DNA from: Companilactobacillus ginsenosidimutans
GTDB taxonomy: Bacteria; Bacillota; Bacilli; Lactobacillales; Lactobacillaceae
Reading direction: 5' to 3'
NCBI RefSeq assembly: GCF_001050475.1
Contig: NZ_CP012034.1
Location: 1,984,001 to 2,048,000 of the forward strand
DNA length: 64,000 nucleotides
Numbering within the stretch: position 1 is the first letter of the stretch; each line of letters begins with the position of its first letter. The translations under genes were made by a program, and so were the position numbers. Shown piece after piece: positions 36,179 through 44,070 of the stretch. Under the pieces are notes generated by a model, which saw only the letters and a list, made by a program, of their open reading frames with translations, was not told where the DNA came from and searched no databases.

Positions 36179-37762
36179 ATGGCAATACTAATATCAAGTG
36201 GACTGATTGTAATTGCCATTGCAATCGCAAATATATTGGCTAAATTCGTACCTGGTATTTCTAATACCTATGTTAATTTGGCGATGGGGATAGTTTTTGG
36301 ATTAATTCCACTTACCGATAAATTAATACTTGGTTTCAATAACGAAATTTTTATGTTCGCCATTATTGCACCTTTATTATTCTTCGAAGGTCAAGGTACT
36401 CGGAACTTTGTGGTAAGAAATCAAGCTAGCAGAATCATTGGAATGTCAGTGATACTTGCAATAATCACAGCAATTTTAGTTGGCTGGTCAATCAACTTAG
36501 TGTTTGGAATGTTTTTCCCATTCACATTGATTATGGCAGCAATTAGTACACCGACTGATGCGACGGCTTTTGACTCAGTTGTTGAGGGTCGTGAGATTCC
36601 TGATGCGGTTGGAAATAACCTGAAGATGGAATCATTATTCAATGACGCAACCGGAATTATTTTGTTGGCTGCTGGATTAACGTGGCTCCAAACAGGACAC
36701 TTATCATTCACTGCAAATATTTCAAGTTTCTTAGTTTCAGCTGTTGGTGGTGTAATCTTCGGTGCCGTGTTTGCCTATCTAGTAATGATCTTTAGACAAA
36801 TATTAGTCCGTTCAAAAGTTAATGTTATTTCATCTCAAACAATAATTTTTCTCATAACTCCATTTGTAATTTACTATTTAGCCGAAGAGATTCACGTCTC
36901 CGGAATCATCGCTGTAGTCTGTGCAGGACTGGTCAGTAACTCCGAAGCCAGTCGAAGCAGATTTTCATCTTCACACCAATTTCACCTTGGAACACAATTG
37001 ATGTTATTCATATCAGAAGTCCTCAATAGCTTCGTTTTCGTTACACTCGGAATCACATTAGTCCGTATAATTCGCGATAATTTCCAAGAAATAACCTTGT
37101 CATTTAGCTGGCTATGGATTGGAATCATGATCTACTTAGTATCGCTTATCGTAAGATATCTTTATGCAAAATTTATCATGCACGATACTGCAACGGATGC
37201 CGTCACCTTCTCATTTGGAGGTATCCATGGCGCCGTTACGTTAGCTATGGTATTCAGTGTTAGCAGACAAATCGTTGGTCAGAAAAATTTTGATTTATTG
37301 ATATTAATTGAGACAGTCGTAATTATATTAAGCATGGTTGTGCCAACTATTTTGTTCAAATTTACTTTGACGGCTACCCCCGATGATACCGACATTTTGG
37401 CTCAAGTTGCAGATATTCGTGACGAGATGGTTAAACGTGGAATTGCTCAAGTAAATGAAATGCATCTCGATAAGAGTGTTCGCAAATCCGTCATTTATGA
37501 TTTACGGGACCAAAACAAGAAAAATGATATGTTTTCATTTTTACATCAATGGCGTGCTGCCAATAAAAACCGCTTTGATTTTGACGAGAAACAACGGCTG
37601 GATGAAAGAAGAGCTTTGATGTATGCGTTCGATGTTGAACGAGACTATTTACATGATGTTTCACTAGAGCATCGTTTTTATAGCAGTTATTTATATACCT
37701 TACACAGCGAAGTACTCCTAGCAGAATCATTAGTGCTAGATCCAATTAATCAACAAAATTAA
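36179..37762 (+). CDS. Na+(K+)/H+ antiporter, CPA1 (NhaP) family
   Basis: The 527 residues comprise about 12 TM segments and then a cytoplasmic C-terminal tail (about residues 390-527) rich in charged residues. The ion-binding region reads MESLFNDATGIIL near 155 (the NDATG motif with its conserved Asp), and the later TM shows SFGGIHGAVTLAM. It exchanges Na+ or K+ for H+ for pH and salt homeostasis. A GGTGGGGG site precedes the ATG. It follows marR in the same direction. Confidence 0.92.
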   Translation: MAILISSGLIVIAIAIANILAKFVPGISNTYVNLAMGIVFGLIPLTDKLILGFNNEIFMFAIIAPLLFFEGQGTRNFVVRNQASRIIGMSVILAIITAILVGWSINLVFGMFFPFTLIMAAISTPTDATAFDSVVEGREIPDAVGNNLKMESLFNDATGIILLAAGLTWLQTGHLSFTANISSFLVSAVGGVIFGAVFAYLVMIFRQILVRSKVNVISSQTIIFLITPFVIYYLAEEIHVSGIIAVVCAGLVSNSEASRSRFSSSHQFHLGTQLMLFISEVLNSFVFVTLGITLVRIIRDNFQEITLSFSWLWIGIMIYLVSLIVRYLYAKFIMHDTATDAVTFSFGGIHGAVTLAMVFSVSRQIVGQKNFDLLILIETVVIILSMVVPTILFKFTLTATPDDTDILAQVADIRDEMVKRGIAQVNEMHLDKSVRKSVIYDLRDQNKKNDMFSFLHQWRAANKNRFDFDEKQRLDERRALMYAFDVERDYLHDVSLEHRFYSSYLYTLHSEVLLAESLVLDPINQQN

Positions 37763-37763
37763 T

Positions 37764-37790
37764 TTGACAAAACAAATAAAGTAATATAAT
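37764..37790 (+). promoter_or_regulatory. Promoter of the cysteine leader/cbs-cgl operon
   Basis: TTGACA (37764-37769) and TATAAT (37785-37790) are both perfect hexamers, with a short 15-nt spacer. Transcription would start at about 37797 and include the leader peptide gene and attenuator. Confidence 0.75.
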
Positions 37791-37820
37791 CTCAGTACAT
37801 AAATTAATCGGAGGAATTCA

Positions 37821-37904
37821 ATGATGACTAATGCAAACTTTGTTACATCAACAAGTTGTTGTTGTGAATCGCATCTTATGCGATTCACTGGTTTGCGTGC
37901 CTAA
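37821..37904 (+). CDS. Cysteine-rich leader peptide (27 residues)
   Basis: This short frame has a strong ribosome binding site (GGAGG at 37810-37814). It starts MMTNANF, runs through TSTSCCCESHLM and ends FTGLRA before TAA. Three consecutive TGT cysteine codons lie at 37857-37865, directly before the first attenuator hairpin. It is too short for an enzyme, and its position between a good promoter and a terminator in front of cysteine-synthesis genes marks it as a regulatory peptide. Stalling at the Cys codons when Cys-tRNA is low would decide which RNA structure forms. Confidence 0.85.
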   Translation: MMTNANFVTSTSCCCESHLMRFTGLRA

Positions 37905-37984
37905 ATTGTCTTTCTTTGGGTAAAACATAAATCAGATCAATCGTATAAGGTGCAGATTTTAATTAGAAATCTGCACCTTTTTTG
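37864..37984 (+). promoter_or_regulatory. Cysteine-responsive transcription attenuator
   Basis: Three mutually exclusive pairings can be read. Hairpin 1:2 is GTGAATCGCAT (37864-37874) with ATGCGATTCAC (37878-37888). The antiterminator 2:3 is GCATCTTATGCGATT (37871-37885) with AATCGTATAAGGTGC (37939-37953), 15 bp with two G-U pairs. The terminator 3:4 is AAGGTGCAGATTT (37947-37959) with AAATCTGCACCTT (37967-37979), 13 bp, followed by a T-run. A ribosome held at the Cys codons would cover strand 1 and favour 2:3, so the cbs-cgl genes are read. Free passage allows 1:2 and termination. Confidence 0.85.
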
Positions 37985-38009
37985 TATCTAATTGAGTGGG
38001 GGAGGGAAA

Positions 38010-38933
38010 ATGTTAGTAGAGAATATATATCAGACAATCGGCAACACACCGCTGTTAAAACTTGATATCGAAGCACCTAACAACGCCAAGATCTATGCCA
38101 AACTCGAGATGTTTAATCCCGGTGGTTCGGTCAAGGATCGCCTAGGAGTGAACTTAATTGAAAATGGGTTGAAGAGCGGTAAAATTAAAAACGGCACTAC
38201 GATAATTGAGCCGACGGCTGGTAATACTGGCATCGGAGTAGCGTTGGCAGCTCAACAATACCACCTGCCAGTCAAGCTAGTTGTACCAGAAAAATTTAGT
38301 CAGGAAAAACAGATATTGATGAAAGCTTTGGGTGCAGAAATTATTCATACACCGTCTGAAGATGGCATCGTCGGAGCAATCGCCAAGGCGAAGGAATTAG
38401 CTGCTGAAACAGATAATTCATACGTCCCACTTCAGTTTGAAAATCCAGCCAATCCAGAAGCTTACTACAAAACGTTAGGCCCAGAAATCATCAAAGATTT
38501 GCCCAATCAAAAAATTGATGCATTCGTAGCTGGCTCTGGTAGTGGTGGAACTTTTGTTGGTGTAACTCAAGCTTTGCAAGACAAATATCCTGATATGAAA
38601 GCAATCACAGTCGAACCAGAAGGATCAATTTTGAATGGTGGTAAGGAACATTCACATCGTACCGAGGGAATTGGAGTCGAATTCGTTCCGCCATTTTTCA
38701 AATCTATCACAGTTGATTCAGTGAAAACTATTAGCGATGATGACGCATTTTCATACGTTAGATGGTTGGCTGATAATGAAGGCGTATTCGCTGGTAGTTC
38801 TAGTGGTGCAGCTCTTGCGGCAGCATTACAAGTTGCTGAAAATTTACCTGAAAATTCAACTATCGTTACAATTTTCCCAGATTCAAGTGAGCGTTACTTG
38901 AGCAAAAACATTTACGGAGACGAGGAGAAATAA
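38010..38933 (+). CDS. Cystathionine beta-synthase / cysteine synthase-type PLP enzyme
   Basis: This fold-type II PLP enzyme has about 307 residues. The cofactor lysine is in NPGGSVKDR near residue 42, and the phosphate loop [10 protein letters not shown] near 177. [14 protein letters not shown] near 70 holds the substrate loop. It makes cystathionine from serine and homocysteine or cysteine from O-acetylserine. Pairing with a cystathionine gamma-lyase favours the first reaction in a reverse transsulfuration route. ATG 38010 follows GGGGGAGGG; the TTG at 37992 lies too close to the terminator. The leader attenuator controls it. Confidence 0.88.
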
Positions 38934-38935
38934 TT

Positions 38936-40075
38936 ATGAAATTTAATACTAAACTTATTCACGGTGGCATTAGCGAAGACAAGGCAACAGGAGCAGTTTC
39001 AATTCCAGTTTATCGTTCATCAACTTTCCACCAACACGTACTAGGTGGCGAACCAAAATGGGAGTACGCACGTACTGGTAACCCAACTCGTGCTGCACTA
39101 GAAGCCTTAGTAGCAGACATTGAAGACGGAACTGCAGCATTCGCATTTGCTTCCGGATCAGCCGCAATTCACACTACTTTTTCACTATTTTCAGCAGGTG
39201 ACCACATTGTCATTGGAAATGATGTCTATGGTGGAACTTTCCGTTTGGTAAACAAAGTCTTGAAACGCTTTGGTCTTGAATTCACAGTTGTTGATACACG
39301 TGATCTTGATGCAGTTGAAAAAGCTATCCAAGATAATACAGTCGCAATTTATTTGGAAACACCAACTAATCCTTTACTTCATGTGTCAGATATTCACGCG
39401 ATTGCTGAAATTGCTAAAAAGCATGATTTGAAAACAATTGTCGACAATACATTTGCCACACCTTATAACCAAAATCCATTAGATTTAGGTGCTAATATTG
39501 TAGTTCACTCAGCCACTAAATATTTAGGTGGCCATTCAGATGTCGTTGCTGGATTGGCAGTTACTAACGATCCTAAAATTGCTGAAGATTTAGCCTTTTT
39601 GCAAAATTCGATTGGTTCAACACTTGGACCTGATGATAGTTGGTTACTCATGCGAGGTATTAAGACACTCGGCGTAAGAATGAGAGTTCACCAAGAAAAT
39701 ACTCAAATAATCTATGACTACTTGAAGAACAACGATAAAGTCGCCAACGTGTACTATCCTGGAGATCCTGAAAGCGAAGGATATGAAATTGCCAAGAAAC
39801 AAATGCATGGTTTCGGTGCGATGATTTCATTTGAATTAAACGAAGGCTTAGATGCTAAAAAGTTTGTTGAAAGTTTAAACTTGATTGATTTAGCCGAAAG
39901 TTTGGGTGGAATTGAAAGCTTAATTGAAGTACCAGCTGTTATGACACATGCCGCAATTCCTCGTGAGATTAGATTAAAAAATGGTATCAAAGATGAATTA
40001 ATTAGACTCTCTGTCGGAGTTGAAGATGACACTGATTTGATAGCTGATTTGGAGCAAGCGTTTTCTAAAATTTAA
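38936..40075 (+). CDS. Cystathionine gamma-lyase (Cys/Met metabolism PLP enzyme)
   Basis: This fold-type I PLP enzyme has 379 residues. The cofactor lysine is in VVHSATKYLGGHSD near residue 196. The N-terminal YRSSTFHQHVLGGEPKWEYARTGNPTR, split over about 25-52, contains the phosphate-contacting Tyr and Arg. It cleaves cystathionine to cysteine, 2-oxobutyrate and ammonia; a cystathionine gamma-synthase activity cannot be excluded from sequence alone. It starts 2 nt after the beta-synthase gene. The pair would make cysteine from homocysteine. No cysE serine acetyltransferase follows, unlike some lactobacillus clusters. Confidence 0.9.
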   Translation: MKFNTKLIHGGISEDKATGAVSIPVYRSSTFHQHVLGGEPKWEYARTGNPTRAALEALVADIEDGTAAFAFASGSAAIHTTFSLFSAGDHIVIGNDVYGGTFRLVNKVLKRFGLEFTVVDTRDLDAVEKAIQDNTVAIYLETPTNPLLHVSDIHAIAEIAKKHDLKTIVDNTFATPYNQNPLDLGANIVVHSATKYLGGHSDVVAGLAVTNDPKIAEDLAFLQNSIGSTLGPDDSWLLMRGIKTLGVRMRVHQENTQIIYDYLKNNDKVANVYYPGDPESEGYEIAKKQMHGFGAMISFELNEGLDAKKFVESLNLIDLAESLGGIESLIEVPAVMTHAAIPREIRLKNGIKDELIRLSVGVEDDTDLIADLEQAFSKI

Positions 40076-40133
40076 TAAAATGATATTGTCATAATTTTTT
40101 ATGAGTGATATTATTCATGTAACAACTAAATAG

Positions 40134-40262
40134 ATTTCTTCGGGGCAGGGTGAAATTCCCGACCGACGGTAACAACATAAGTTGAAGTCCGTGACCCGCG
40201 TAAGCGGTTGACCCAGTGAGATTCTGGGACCGACAGTAAAGTCTGGATGGGAGAAGAAGAAA
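40134..40262 (+). ncRNA. FMN riboswitch (RFN element)
   Basis: The conserved RFN sequence is plain: TTCTTCGGGGCAGGGTGAAA at the 5' side, then CCCGACCG, GTCCGTGACCC, GGTTGACCCAGTGA, GGGACCGACAGT and CTGGATGGGAGAAGAA. The closing stem pairs TTTCTTC with GAAGAA. It binds FMN and turns off the riboflavin operon through the terminator downstream. It lies 130 nt before ribD. Confidence 0.97.
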
Positions 40263-40389: not shown

Positions 40390-41439
40390 TTGGAAGAAAA
40401 AGAATTTATGAATATCGCTTTTCAAGAAGCGAAAAAAGGGAAGTCAACTTGGACTAATCCGCAAGTAGGAGCGGTCATAGTTAAAGACGGGAAAATCCTA
40501 GCTCAAGGTCATCATGAAAAATTTGGTGGTCCGCATGCTGAAGTTAATACGTTAAATAAGTTGGAGTATATTTCCGATGCAAAAGGTGCCGACATGTATG
40601 TGACTCTGGAACCTTGTTCACATTTTGGTAAAACACCACCTTGTGTGCAGCGAGTAACTGAAGTTGGAATTAAACGTGTGTTCATTGGCATGCAAGATCC
40701 TAACCCGATTGTCAGTGGCAATGGAATTAAGTATCTCAAAGACCACAATATTGAGGTTGAAGTTTGCAATGACACCGGAGACATAAACGAAGCATATATT
40801 TTTTATTATCAAAATAAGCGACCATTGATTACGGTCAAATATGCAATGTCTGTTGATGGAAAAATTAACAAGACAGGACATCATCGAACAATTATTACTG
40901 GTGAAGAGGCTTATGAGGATGCCCAAAAATTGCGTTCAGAAAACCAGGCAATTTTGATTGGCGAGCACACAGTAATTATTGATAATCCTCAGCTTACAGT
41001 TAGAAATAGAGAAATGGATTTCCCCCCGATTCGGGTGGTTGTAGTTCGTGACGTCAATACTGTGGAATTCGGATATAAAATTTTTCAAAATGATGGGATT
41101 AAGACGTTGATATTCAGTCAAACAAAGTCAAGACGTCGACTACCAGAAAATGTTGAGGTCGCAGTTCGAGACGACTGGACTCCTGACAAGATTGTTGAAG
41201 AATTAGCTCAACGAAATATCGAATCACTCCTAGTTGAAGGTGGCAGCAAGCTCCAAGCAGAGTTTGTTCATGCGGGTTTAGTCGACAAGGTTGTCACGTA
41301 TATCGCTCCAAAATTGTTTGGTGGAGCAAGTTTGCCAGCTGTTCAAGGAGATTATCGATCGTCTGAAATTGATTTTGAAGAAACCGAAATCACCAAATTG
41401 GGTTCAGATTTGAAAATCGAATTGAGGAGGTCGAAGTGA
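40390..41439 (+). CDS. ribD: Bifunctional riboflavin deaminase/reductase
   Basis: The 349 residues form two domains. The N-terminal zinc deaminase (about 1-145) has PHAEVNTL (His and Glu) and TLEPCSHFGKTPPC (two Cys). The C-terminal NADPH reductase (about 146-349) has VKYAMSVDGKI and SLLVEGGSKL. It carries out the second and third steps from the pyrimidine product of RibBA. The start is TTG at 40390 after GAGGTGG; it includes the conserved EFMNIAFQEAKKG helix that the ATG at 40408 would cut. First gene of the riboflavin operon. Confidence 0.96.
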   Translation: MEEKEFMNIAFQEAKKGKSTWTNPQVGAVIVKDGKILAQGHHEKFGGPHAEVNTLNKLEYISDAKGADMYVTLEPCSHFGKTPPCVQRVTEVGIKRVFIGMQDPNPIVSGNGIKYLKDHNIEVEVCNDTGDINEAYIFYYQNKRPLITVKYAMSVDGKINKTGHHRTIITGEEAYEDAQKLRSENQAILIGEHTVIIDNPQLTVRNREMDFPPIRVVVVRDVNTVEFGYKIFQNDGIKTLIFSQTKSRRRLPENVEVAVRDDWTPDKIVEELAQRNIESLLVEGGSKLQAEFVHAGLVDKVVTYIAPKLFGGASLPAVQGDYRSSEIDFEETEITKLGSDLKIELRRSK

Positions 41440-42044
41440 TGTTTACTGGAATAATTAAGGATGTGGGAACAGTTTCAGCTATTGAAAAACATGGTGAAAC
41501 CTTTAAGTTAGCTATCAAATTAAATCAGTTGAAGAATGCTGAAATTTCACTCGGTGACAGTATTGCTGTCAATGGAACTTGTCTGACGGTCACTGATTTG
41601 TTAGACAGTGGCTTTGCAGTTGAAGCAATGCCGGAAACTTTCCGAAGGACAAATTTGGGACAGTTAGAAATTGGCAATCACGTAAATATTGAACCGGCTC
41701 TTGGCGCTAGCGACAAGTTAGATGGCCACTTTGTATTGGGCCACGTGGATACAACCGCTGAATTGGTCAACAAAACTGATGATCAGAATTCAACTGTTCT
41801 GAGTTTCAGAGTCTCACCTGAGTATCGTAAATATATCGTCGAAAAAGGTTCAGTAGCCATCGATGGAGTTAGCTTAACGGTTTCGGGTGTTGAGAAAGAT
41901 ATTTTCCAAGTTTCACTCATTCCATACACACTGTCACATACCATACTCGGTGAATTAAACGTTGAAGACTCAATTAATTTGGAAACAGATATTTTAGGCA
42001 AATATATTTTAGATTCGAAAGTGGAGGCTTACCAAAATGACTAG
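41439..42044 (+). CDS. ribE: Riboflavin synthase alpha chain
   Basis: The 201 residues hold two homologous barrel domains. The starts MFTGIIKDVG and (second half) SDKLDGHFVLGHVD/GVSLTVSGVE are typical, as are NGTCLTV and IDGVSLTV at the two active-site loops. It dismutates two 6,7-dimethyl-8-ribityllumazine molecules to riboflavin. I chose the ATG at 41439, which overlaps the ribD TGA; a GTG three bases upstream is in frame. AGGAGG lies upstream within ribD. Confidence 0.96.
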   Translation: MFTGIIKDVGTVSAIEKHGETFKLAIKLNQLKNAEISLGDSIAVNGTCLTVTDLLDSGFAVEAMPETFRRTNLGQLEIGNHVNIEPALGASDKLDGHFVLGHVDTTAELVNKTDDQNSTVLSFRVSPEYRKYIVEKGSVAIDGVSLTVSGVEKDIFQVSLIPYTLSHTILGELNVEDSINLETDILGKYILDSKVEAYQND

Positions 42045-43254
42045 CACAGAAATTATTGAAAAAGTTGAAAATGCTCTAACTGAATTAAAGAAAGGTAATT
42101 TGATTATTGTTGCTGATTCACCTGATCGTGAATCTGAAGGTGACATGATTGGCTTGGCTGACTTTGCTACTGGCGAAAATGTTAACACAATGATTAAGCA
42201 TGCTCGTGGACTTTTATGTGTGCCAATGTCACCTGAATATGCACAACGCTTGAAGTTGAAACCAATGGTCCCTGACGGAGAGGATGCCTATGGAACGGCC
42301 TTTACGATTAGTACTGACGCCAAAACGACTACTACTGGAATATCAGCTTTCGACCGAGCAAAGACCATCAACGCACTCGCCGATCCAAGCAGCAGTTATG
42401 ATGACTTCTATCATCCTGGGCATATCTTCCCACTAGTTGCTGCCGGAAATGGAATATTCGAAAGAACAGGTCACACTGAAGCTGCCGTTGATTTAGCCAA
42501 ACTTGCTGGCGGCTCACCGGTTGCCTATATTTGCGAATGCGTTAAGGAAAGCGGAACGATGGCTCGGCTCAAGGATCTTCGTGTGATTGCTGAGAAAAAT
42601 AATCTTGAGCTCATCACGATCGAGGACATTATCGAATATCGTCGAATGAAGGATACAAGTTACATTGAAGAAATCGCTGATGTAAATTTGCCATCAAAGT
42701 ACGGCGATTTCAAGATGAAAGCTTTCAAAGTTAATGAAACTGACGAGCCAACTTTGCTGATTTATAATGGTGAAATCAACGGTGCCGACCCACTATTATT
42801 CAGAATGCATTCCGAGTGCTTGACAGGTGATATTCTTGGCTCAAAACGGTGTGACTGCGGTCAACAACTAGAAACTGCACTGCGTGCGATTGAGAAAAAT
42901 GGTTCTGGAGCAGTCTTATATTTGCGTCAAGAAGGACGTGGAATTGGGCTTGCCAATAAACTTAAAGCTTATGAGCTTCAAGAACAAGGCTACGACACAG
43001 TTGAAGCCAACATAAAATTAGGTTTTAAACCAGACGAACGTGAGTATGGTCTAGCCGCCTCGATTCTTAAAATGGAAAATATCGATCATGTTCAGTTGAT
43101 GACTAATAATCCGGATAAAATCGAAAAGTTGGAACAACTAGGAATCAAAGTTGACCGCCGTATTCCTATTGAAACGAAGCCTATCAAGGAAAATATTAGA
43201 TATTTGGAAACTAAGAAAATCAAATTTCATCATTTATTAAGCGAGGTAAATTAA
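42037..43254 (+). CDS. ribBA: Bifunctional DHBP synthase / GTP cyclohydrolase II
   Basis: The protein has 405 residues. The N-terminal RibB half (about 1-205) has DSPDRESEGDM, and FDRAKTINALADP and GHTEAAVDLAKLAG later. The RibA half (about 206-405) has RMHSECLTGD with the zinc site DILGSKRCDCGQQL and LRQEGRGIGL. It makes 3,4-dihydroxy-2-butanone 4-phosphate from ribulose 5-phosphate and the pyrimidine from GTP. It overlaps ribE by 8 nt. One point to check is the RibB stretch AKTTTTGISAFDRA, where the usual Asp/Glu in 'TGISA(x)DRA' is Phe. Confidence 0.96.
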   Translation: MTSTEIIEKVENALTELKKGNLIIVADSPDRESEGDMIGLADFATGENVNTMIKHARGLLCVPMSPEYAQRLKLKPMVPDGEDAYGTAFTISTDAKTTTTGISAFDRAKTINALADPSSSYDDFYHPGHIFPLVAAGNGIFERTGHTEAAVDLAKLAGGSPVAYICECVKESGTMARLKDLRVIAEKNNLELITIEDIIEYRRMKDTSYIEEIADVNLPSKYGDFKMKAFKVNETDEPTLLIYNGEINGADPLLFRMHSECLTGDILGSKRCDCGQQLETALRAIEKNGSGAVLYLRQEGRGIGLANKLKAYELQEQGYDTVEANIKLGFKPDEREYGLAASILKMENIDHVQLMTNNPDKIEKLEQLGIKVDRRIPIETKPIKENIRYLETKKIKFHHLLSEVN

Positions 43255-43789: not shown

Positions 43790-44070
43790 TTAAAAAAAGG
43801 GAAGAGTAGCCACGTGTTTGTCGATACAGAAAGTCTATGTTGCTGAGAATAGACATGATATAGCGTAGTGAACATGAGCCCAGATTTTTATTCGACGGTT
43901 GAAAGGCTGTTGGGTCGCAAGGATGCGTTACAATCCCGAGCTTGAACACGAGCTGATGAGGTCTAGTAAGCGTGCCTATTTTGGATTACTAGATAAATTA
44001 AGGTGGTAACGCGATTTTGTCGTCCTTAAATTTGTACAGGAATGTATAAGTTTAGGGACGATTTTTTTTA
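43790..44070 (+). ncRNA. T-box leader, probably methionine specific
   Basis: The T-box core AAGGTGGTAACGCG is at 44000-44013. It is followed by the terminator hairpin CGTCCTTAAA/TTTAGGGACG (44021-44060) and eight T. Stem I starts with GGGAAGAG at about 43799. The likely specifier loop reads GTGAACATGAGCCC, giving ATG (43874-43876) followed by a purine, so the sensed tRNA is tRNA-Met. A Met T-box fits the O-acetylhomoserine sulfhydrylase downstream. The T-box is certain; the specifier assignment is by eye. Confidence 0.92.

Follow-up and report, generated by a model that had tools for sequence, protein, structure and literature searches.

What controls the cbs-cgl operon of Companilactobacillus ginsenosidimutans? 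In the 64,000-nucleotide stretch of DNA that was analysed (the window), a cbs or cysK-like gene at 38010–38933 (+ strand; Pfam PALP; best NCBIfam model TIGR01139 cysK, below cut-off) is followed by a cgl-like gene at 38936–40075 (+ strand; Pfam Cys_Met_Meta_PP; best NCBIfam models cystathionine gamma-synthase and gamma-lyase, below their cut-offs). The upstream antiporter gene stops at 37762. After cgl lies an FMN riboswitch (RF00050, 122 bits) at 40132–40262, and the genes downstream of it (40390–43254) probably serve riboflavin synthesis, as judged by reading their translations. The ribosome-mediated attenuators of the trp and his operons of enterobacteria combine a run of codons in a leader peptide, RNA strands shared between pairings and an intrinsic terminator. 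We consider it very probable that the leader of cbs-cgl is a transcription attenuator of this type, sensing charged tRNA-Cys.

All elements of the leader lie on the + strand. A promoter-like site (37764–37792, direct reading) opens with TTGACA (37764–37769), which the earlier note had paired with TATAAT (37785–37790). Both boxes are present, but their spacing is 15 nt, and for this reason the pair is missing from a promoter scan at 16–18-nt spacing. TAATCT (37787–37792) stands at 17 nt, where many relatives in the genus have TATTCT; TTGACA itself is seen in 19 of 20 genus leaders (in L015 the script chose another site). The relatives suggest that the −10 box lies two bases downstream of TATAAT, with 17-nt spacing. 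About 30 nt past the −10, and led by the Shine–Dalgarno sequence GGAGG (37810–37814), starts a frame of 27 codons (37821–37901, TAA at 37902–37904) encoding the peptide MMTNANFVTSTSCCCESHLMRFTGLRA; direct reading of 37810–37904 confirms the three TGT codons in a row described earlier, which occupy 37857–37865. Among the 35 Shine–Dalgarno-led ATG frames of 15–50 codons in the window, CC or CCC occurs in this leader alone (both its ATGs counted). The peptide belongs to no Pfam family and finds a sub-threshold leu-leader match alone in NCBIfam (E 0.079).

Three pairings follow. Hairpin 1:2 (37864–37888) is a perfect 11-bp stem with a 3-nt loop, its arms 37864–37874 and 37878–37888 starting from the third Cys codon. 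The intrinsic terminator 3:4 with its T-run (37947–37983) has a perfect 13-bp stem (37947–37959/37967–37979) and six positions of T-run (37978–37983); it was also recovered by a terminator scan, in which shuffles average 0.7 such sites. Both are as the earlier note had them. Its 15-bp alternative pairing exists too, with two G-U pairs, but at a corrected position: strand 2 at 37871–37885 pairs with strand 3 at 37939–37953, and strand 3 shares 7 nt with the base of the terminator stem. The coordinates confirm the 1:2 / 2:3 / 3:4 sharing of strands claimed for this leader by analogy with trp and his. The whole leader folds with z = −5.8, and 0/200 shuffles are equally stable.

The proposed switch would work as follows. 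With ample Cys-tRNA the ribosome would clear the three Cys codons and reach the stop codon, where hairpin 1:2 would form and use up strand 2; with strand 2 sequestered, terminator 3:4 would halt transcription ahead of cbs-cgl. With scarce Cys-tRNA the ribosome would stall as the first Cys codon occupies its A site, cover the RNA to about 37869 and so prevent 1:2. Strand 2, just beyond the ribosome, would then pair with strand 3 and hold the base of the terminator stem, its last-forming part, allowing read-through into cbs-cgl and the making of cysteine from homocysteine and serine. The lower pairs of a terminator form last and complete termination; pairing 2:3, once in place, would block the lower seven and prevent termination. 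The sequence shows anatomy, conservation, co-evolution and gene association; we infer ribosome stalling, the kinetics, the exact enzyme reactions and the response to charged tRNA-Cys in this organism.

Folding calculations bear on how such a switch could operate. At equilibrium the full leader without a ribosome has 1:2 at 0.92 and 3:4 at 0.98, and these values are 0.59 and 0.98 when a ribosome occupies the stop codon. Blocking strand 1, a check proposed in the earlier note, gives a mixed outcome: a ribosome placed on the Cys codons removes 1:2 and raises 2:3 to 0.59–0.62, but leaves 3:4 at 0.87–0.90. A reading of the switch from equilibrium only is incomplete. The computed barrier of the direct path from 2:3 to 3:4 is also low (4.4–5.3 kcal/mol); taken with the persistence of 3:4, this means that the switch, if it works as proposed, must be kinetic and may leak. 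When the RNA extends only to 37963, 2:3 reaches 0.99, 0.77 and 0.64 with Cys1, Cys2 and Cys3 in the A site, and it is favoured as well on ribosome-free RNA (0.99) and when the ribosome sits at the stop codon (0.92). Termination therefore requires that 1:2 forms before 2:3 and stays in place; leaving 1:2 has a computed barrier of about 19 kcal/mol.

Searching the DNA of 60 genomes (the own genome included, 36 of them in the genus of the window) gave matches in 19, every one in that genus. These 19 genomes supplied twenty leaders, after removal of one match in which the terminator palindrome had been hit on the reverse strand. CCC is encoded by 20/20, and the leaders precede cbs or cgl (at L007 the contig ends); in several species without a cbs ortholog, cgl comes directly after the leader. 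In two of the genomes (L004 in G016, L006 in G007) the gap from leader to cbs is some 350–550 bases in place of the usual 30 or so, and that of L004 looks repeat-like by eye. A covariance model (R1) then reached 63 of 397 genomes of the family, in 10 of 40 genera. From the DNA and model searches 75 loci were extracted; one (L160) is a chance match, which leaves 74 leaders from 9 genera.

A further model (R3), built from these 74, matched 103 of the 397 family genomes and 17 of the 40 genera. Reading another 47 of its family matches gave 32 leaders with a Cys run (31 CC, 1 CPC) before cbs or a permease; the other 15 comprise one before cbs without a start by the rule used, one cut by a contig end and 13 chance matches with no Cys frame. 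By such reading 9 of the 103 genomes hold chance matches only, 2 are unread (G186, G249) and 92 are judged real, so that the attenuator is placed in 92/397 family genomes and 12/40 genera. In 395 genomes of the order R3 matched 23, of which 9 lie outside the family; 2 of these 9, both of one genus (g83), carry real leaders before cbs. In 299 genomes of the class the only real match is in the own genome, together with 2 weak matches without a Cys frame. Searches of more than 40 genomes used stricter filters, by which weak matches are lost. The R1 and R3 matches L196–L199, L201–L204, L206, L210 and L160 were rejected as chance, having no Cys frame.

The earlier note made its reading depend on the Cys codons and pairing 2:3 being kept in relatives. 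Cys is present at codon 1 in 74/74, at codon 2 in 71/74 and at codon 3 in 69/74 leaders; TGT and TGC both occur at each of the three, and variation is mostly between these two. A Shine–Dalgarno sequence and start stand in frame with them in 73/74 leaders and out of frame in 0/74. By tblastn with four query proteins, the nearest downstream gene of the 74 is cbs in 37, cgl in 27, an ABC permease in 6 and a MetA-like gene in 2; L007 and L147, with at most 174 readable bases downstream, have no gene assigned. Among 40 later leaders it is cbs in 39 and a permease in 1. Cysteine-related genes are therefore found downstream of 72/74 and 40/40 leaders. The permeases are of the amino-acid ABC type (L119, L132, L146, L149, L153, L155 and L334; 6/74 and 1/40), and because the same leader type precedes them, the regulon may extend to a system that takes up cystine or cysteine.

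Covariation was assessed for each helix. In the alignment of the 20 genus leaders 89.1% of cells are paired for 1:2, 95.7% for 2:3 and 95.4% for 3:4. For 2:3 and 3:4 none of 500 shuffles reaches the observed percentage paired, two-sided cells or covariation score (the score of 2:3 is 0.307 vs 0.201 shuffled). Coarser measures are less clear: for 2:3 and 3:4 respectively, pairs with two-sided change are reached by 8 and 15 of 500 shuffles, and pair types by 15 and 154. Helix 1:2 is the weakest in this set, with 16/500 shuffles reaching the percentage paired, 9/500 the score and 0/500 the two-sided cells. Over the 74 leaders (72 distinct) from 9 genera, 12 of the 14 pairs of 2:3 are changed on both sides, with 97 two-sided cells vs 35 shuffled (0/500; slid controls at most 21), in an alignment fitted to 1:2 and 3:4 and not to 2:3. 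Helices 1:2 and 3:4 together show two-sided change in 22/24 pairs and 228 cells vs 54 shuffled (0/500).

Pairing 2:3 was also examined by exchanging strands. In the 74 leaders the native duplex of strands 2 and 3 has −25.7 kcal/mol vs −16.7 kcal/mol with strands from other genera (0/2000 permutations); the 9 genus groups agree, and in 40/74 the native pair beats every other-genus swap. Repeated on 38 leaders outside both the model and the first test (40 rows, 2 with duplicate strands left out; permutation independent of genus labels), the values are −25.1 vs −18.3 (0/2000). In the 14 leaders printed from this second set the duplex enters the terminator arm by 6–8 nt, strand 3 having been clipped 8 nt into the arm, so that a longer overlap could not appear. 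Two Enterococcus leaders fail the test (native −13.1, swapped −14.9). Related genomes, in which the earlier note had recommended looking for CCC frames upstream of cysK or cbs, hold a family whose three helices co-vary and whose native antiterminator strands bind better than swapped ones. The two outcomes that the earlier note would have taken as refuting, lack of conservation of the Cys codons or of 2:3, are thus the reverse of what the relatives show. The attenuator reading is strongly supported, holding in every part that sequence can address: Cys codons, frame, helices and downstream cysteine genes.

The same genome has a second, distinct CCC leader, MKNLKNVKMNACCCVMMKNHYTFSACLIPLN, at G000:C1:2364103-2364236 (L082, L183), before a MetA-like gene (Pfam HTS; NCBIfam MetA models below cut-off) behind which lies the second cysK of the genome, 42% identical. 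According to excerpts of PMC6004538, an L. paracasei gene called metA encodes a serine acetyltransferase. We refer to the class of the window leader as type A and to this one as type B. A type B model (R2) matched 28/397 family genomes, namely all 26 sampled genus genomes and 2 of genus g52; a type A match is absent from 6 of the 26. As in type A, the third Cys codon is where the type B hairpin starts; its strand 2 occupies the end of the ORF. Its antiterminator is weaker yet also prefers native strands (−12.2 vs −9.6, 0/2000) in the 21 of 28 loci used, duplicates and rows unmatched by the expressions of the script being left out. Beyond CCC the peptides are partly conserved, with SHLMR in many type A leaders and CLIPLN in most of type B. 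Four type B leaders (L184–L187) carry the conserved RNA tail in another frame, reading MPNTTLN in place of CLIPLN, and provide a natural experiment on whether the RNA or the peptide is conserved. The earlier note understated the extent of the system, which spans 12 of 40 sampled genera and is represented in this genome by a second class as well.

A T-box or metabolite riboswitch might instead drive the terminator, the short frame being incidental. Conservation of the hairpin could by itself indicate an aptamer, the genome has 28 T-box matches (E ≤ 0.001), 5 of them over the cut-off, and the excerpts of PMC6004538 report a Cys T-box at one transporter operon of L. paracasei. None of the 28 falls at either Cys leader, and no Rfam 15 family, RF00230 included, matches the window leader or 36 further loci from relatives at gathering score; the frame is moreover kept, with its Cys codons exchanged mostly between TGT and TGC. 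We regard this explanation as exceedingly unlikely. One T-box match of 84.6 bits (Rfam cut-off 93) lies at 43790–44030 of the window (G000:C1:2027790-2028030) and precedes a frame resembling O-acetylhomoserine sulfhydrylase, a name that comes from reading its N-terminus.

Translation of the leader could also act through the nascent peptide, Rho or translational coupling, not through stalling for tRNA-Cys and a choice between terminator and antiterminator. The conserved SHLMR and CLIPLN would fit a working peptide, but these parts fall in paired RNA strands, the four leaders with MPNTTLN preserve the RNA and not the peptide, and terminator and antiterminator co-vary; such a mode of action seems very unlikely to us. 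The terminator stem is, in addition, a strongly conserved palindrome, at which a regulator might bind or the upstream antiporter gene might end. It would then be an operator or ordinary terminator with no leader-peptide control, in the manner of the palindromic motif that excerpts of PMC6004538 attribute to Liu et al. 2012. That account leaves unexplained the conserved Cys codons, hairpin 1:2, the co-evolving antiterminator and the occurrence of one leader type ahead of various cysteine-related genes, and we find it extremely improbable. Attenuation by a ribosome at the Cys codons remains our preferred reading.

Leaders of this family also occur on plasmids. In plasmid records, leaders that fit the model stand before cbs-like genes of Lacticaseibacillus paracasei, L. 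rhamnosus, L. casei, Limosilactobacillus fermentum (80.7 bits) and Enterococcus faecalis (35.7 bits). Model-fitting leaders upstream of cbs-like genes are likewise present in Ligilactobacillus apodemi and Enterococcus hermanniensis. Two leaders from different genera (L355 of G295, g28; L358 of G335, g30) are near-identical, as are the starts of their cbs genes, which suggests a mobile cluster. An E. faecalis 'hypothetical protein', WP_002355203.1 (L294 2774–2911), contains CCC and lies before cbs-cgl; the antiterminator of its locus departs from the type A model. The family suggests that short 'hypothetical proteins' before cysteine genes, such as this one, are leader peptides.

A regulatory effect compatible with the model has been published. 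The excerpts of PMC6004538 describe the cysK2-ctl1-cysE2 operon of L. paracasei, whose level in cysteine-deficient medium is about 2^3 times that in methionine-deficient medium; its 5′-UTR is highly covered by reads and contains a terminator but no T-box, and the mechanism is left unexplained there. They also propose an antisense RNA at this operon, which counts against a reading by attenuator only. Upstream of the cysteine-repressed operon of strain FAM18149 they report the motif AAGGGCGCGAAA-N16-TTTCGCGCCCTT. In the pLC2W copy of the cluster (its own sequence, not that of FAM18149) we find a leader ending in NCCCRTTRFWRCSAC and a terminator equal to AAGGGCGCGAAA-N16-TTTCGCGCCCTT. The attenuator offers a testable mechanism for the repression of this methionine-to-cysteine operon. 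It also appears to be a widespread amino-acid switch missing from Rfam 15, and adds a clear case of leader-peptide attenuation alongside many T-boxes in one genome. We lean towards a broader view, in which the two related classes of Cys-codon attenuator would form the main protein-free cysteine regulon of much of the Lactobacillales, covering synthesis, conversion of methionine and uptake and replacing the expected T-boxes, with one class portable on mobile cbs-cgl-cysE clusters.

The system is known in kind, being of the trp/his type, while the family itself is apparently undescribed. The earlier note doubted that this is a textbook case, which agrees with the Rfam result and with the literature searched (mostly papers outside subscription), where no Cys leader peptide of lactobacilli is described. 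The enterobacterial trp and his leaders share with it a Shine–Dalgarno-led frame, consecutive codons for the pathway's own amino acid, the 1:2 / 2:3 / 3:4 arrangement and an intrinsic terminator. The leader here differs in its Cys codons and low-GC Gram-positive host, and in that strand 2 begins inside the 5′ arm of 1:2 and 7 of the 15 antiterminator pairs overlap the terminator stem. Mycobacteria have polycysteine short ORFs, leaderless uORFs with a Cys run upstream of cysteine genes that respond to cysteine. A leaderless start is not found at the window leader, which is Shine–Dalgarno-led and has an intrinsic terminator and a co-evolving antiterminator. The uORFC-8-2 motif of cysS in Rhodobacterales, as given in excerpts of PMC8632094, shares a tandem-Cys uORF, Cys codons in the first stem and a terminal U-run; it differs in belonging to alphaproteobacteria, in its gene and in having two Cys codons, and the likeness is one of described features. 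Other Firmicutes, too, use attenuation by leader peptides where T-boxes might stand, as described for the His leader peptides of bacilli (excerpts of PMC2965389) and for Listeria ilv (PMC5864092), with other amino acids and genes. A further parallel is the L. paracasei operon, for which the excerpts of PMC6004538 give a terminator and an antisense RNA, and in those excerpts no leader peptide or antiterminator; it has the same kind of genes, is repressed by cysteine and has a terminator in its 5′-UTR, and the CCC leader of pLC2W fits the model.
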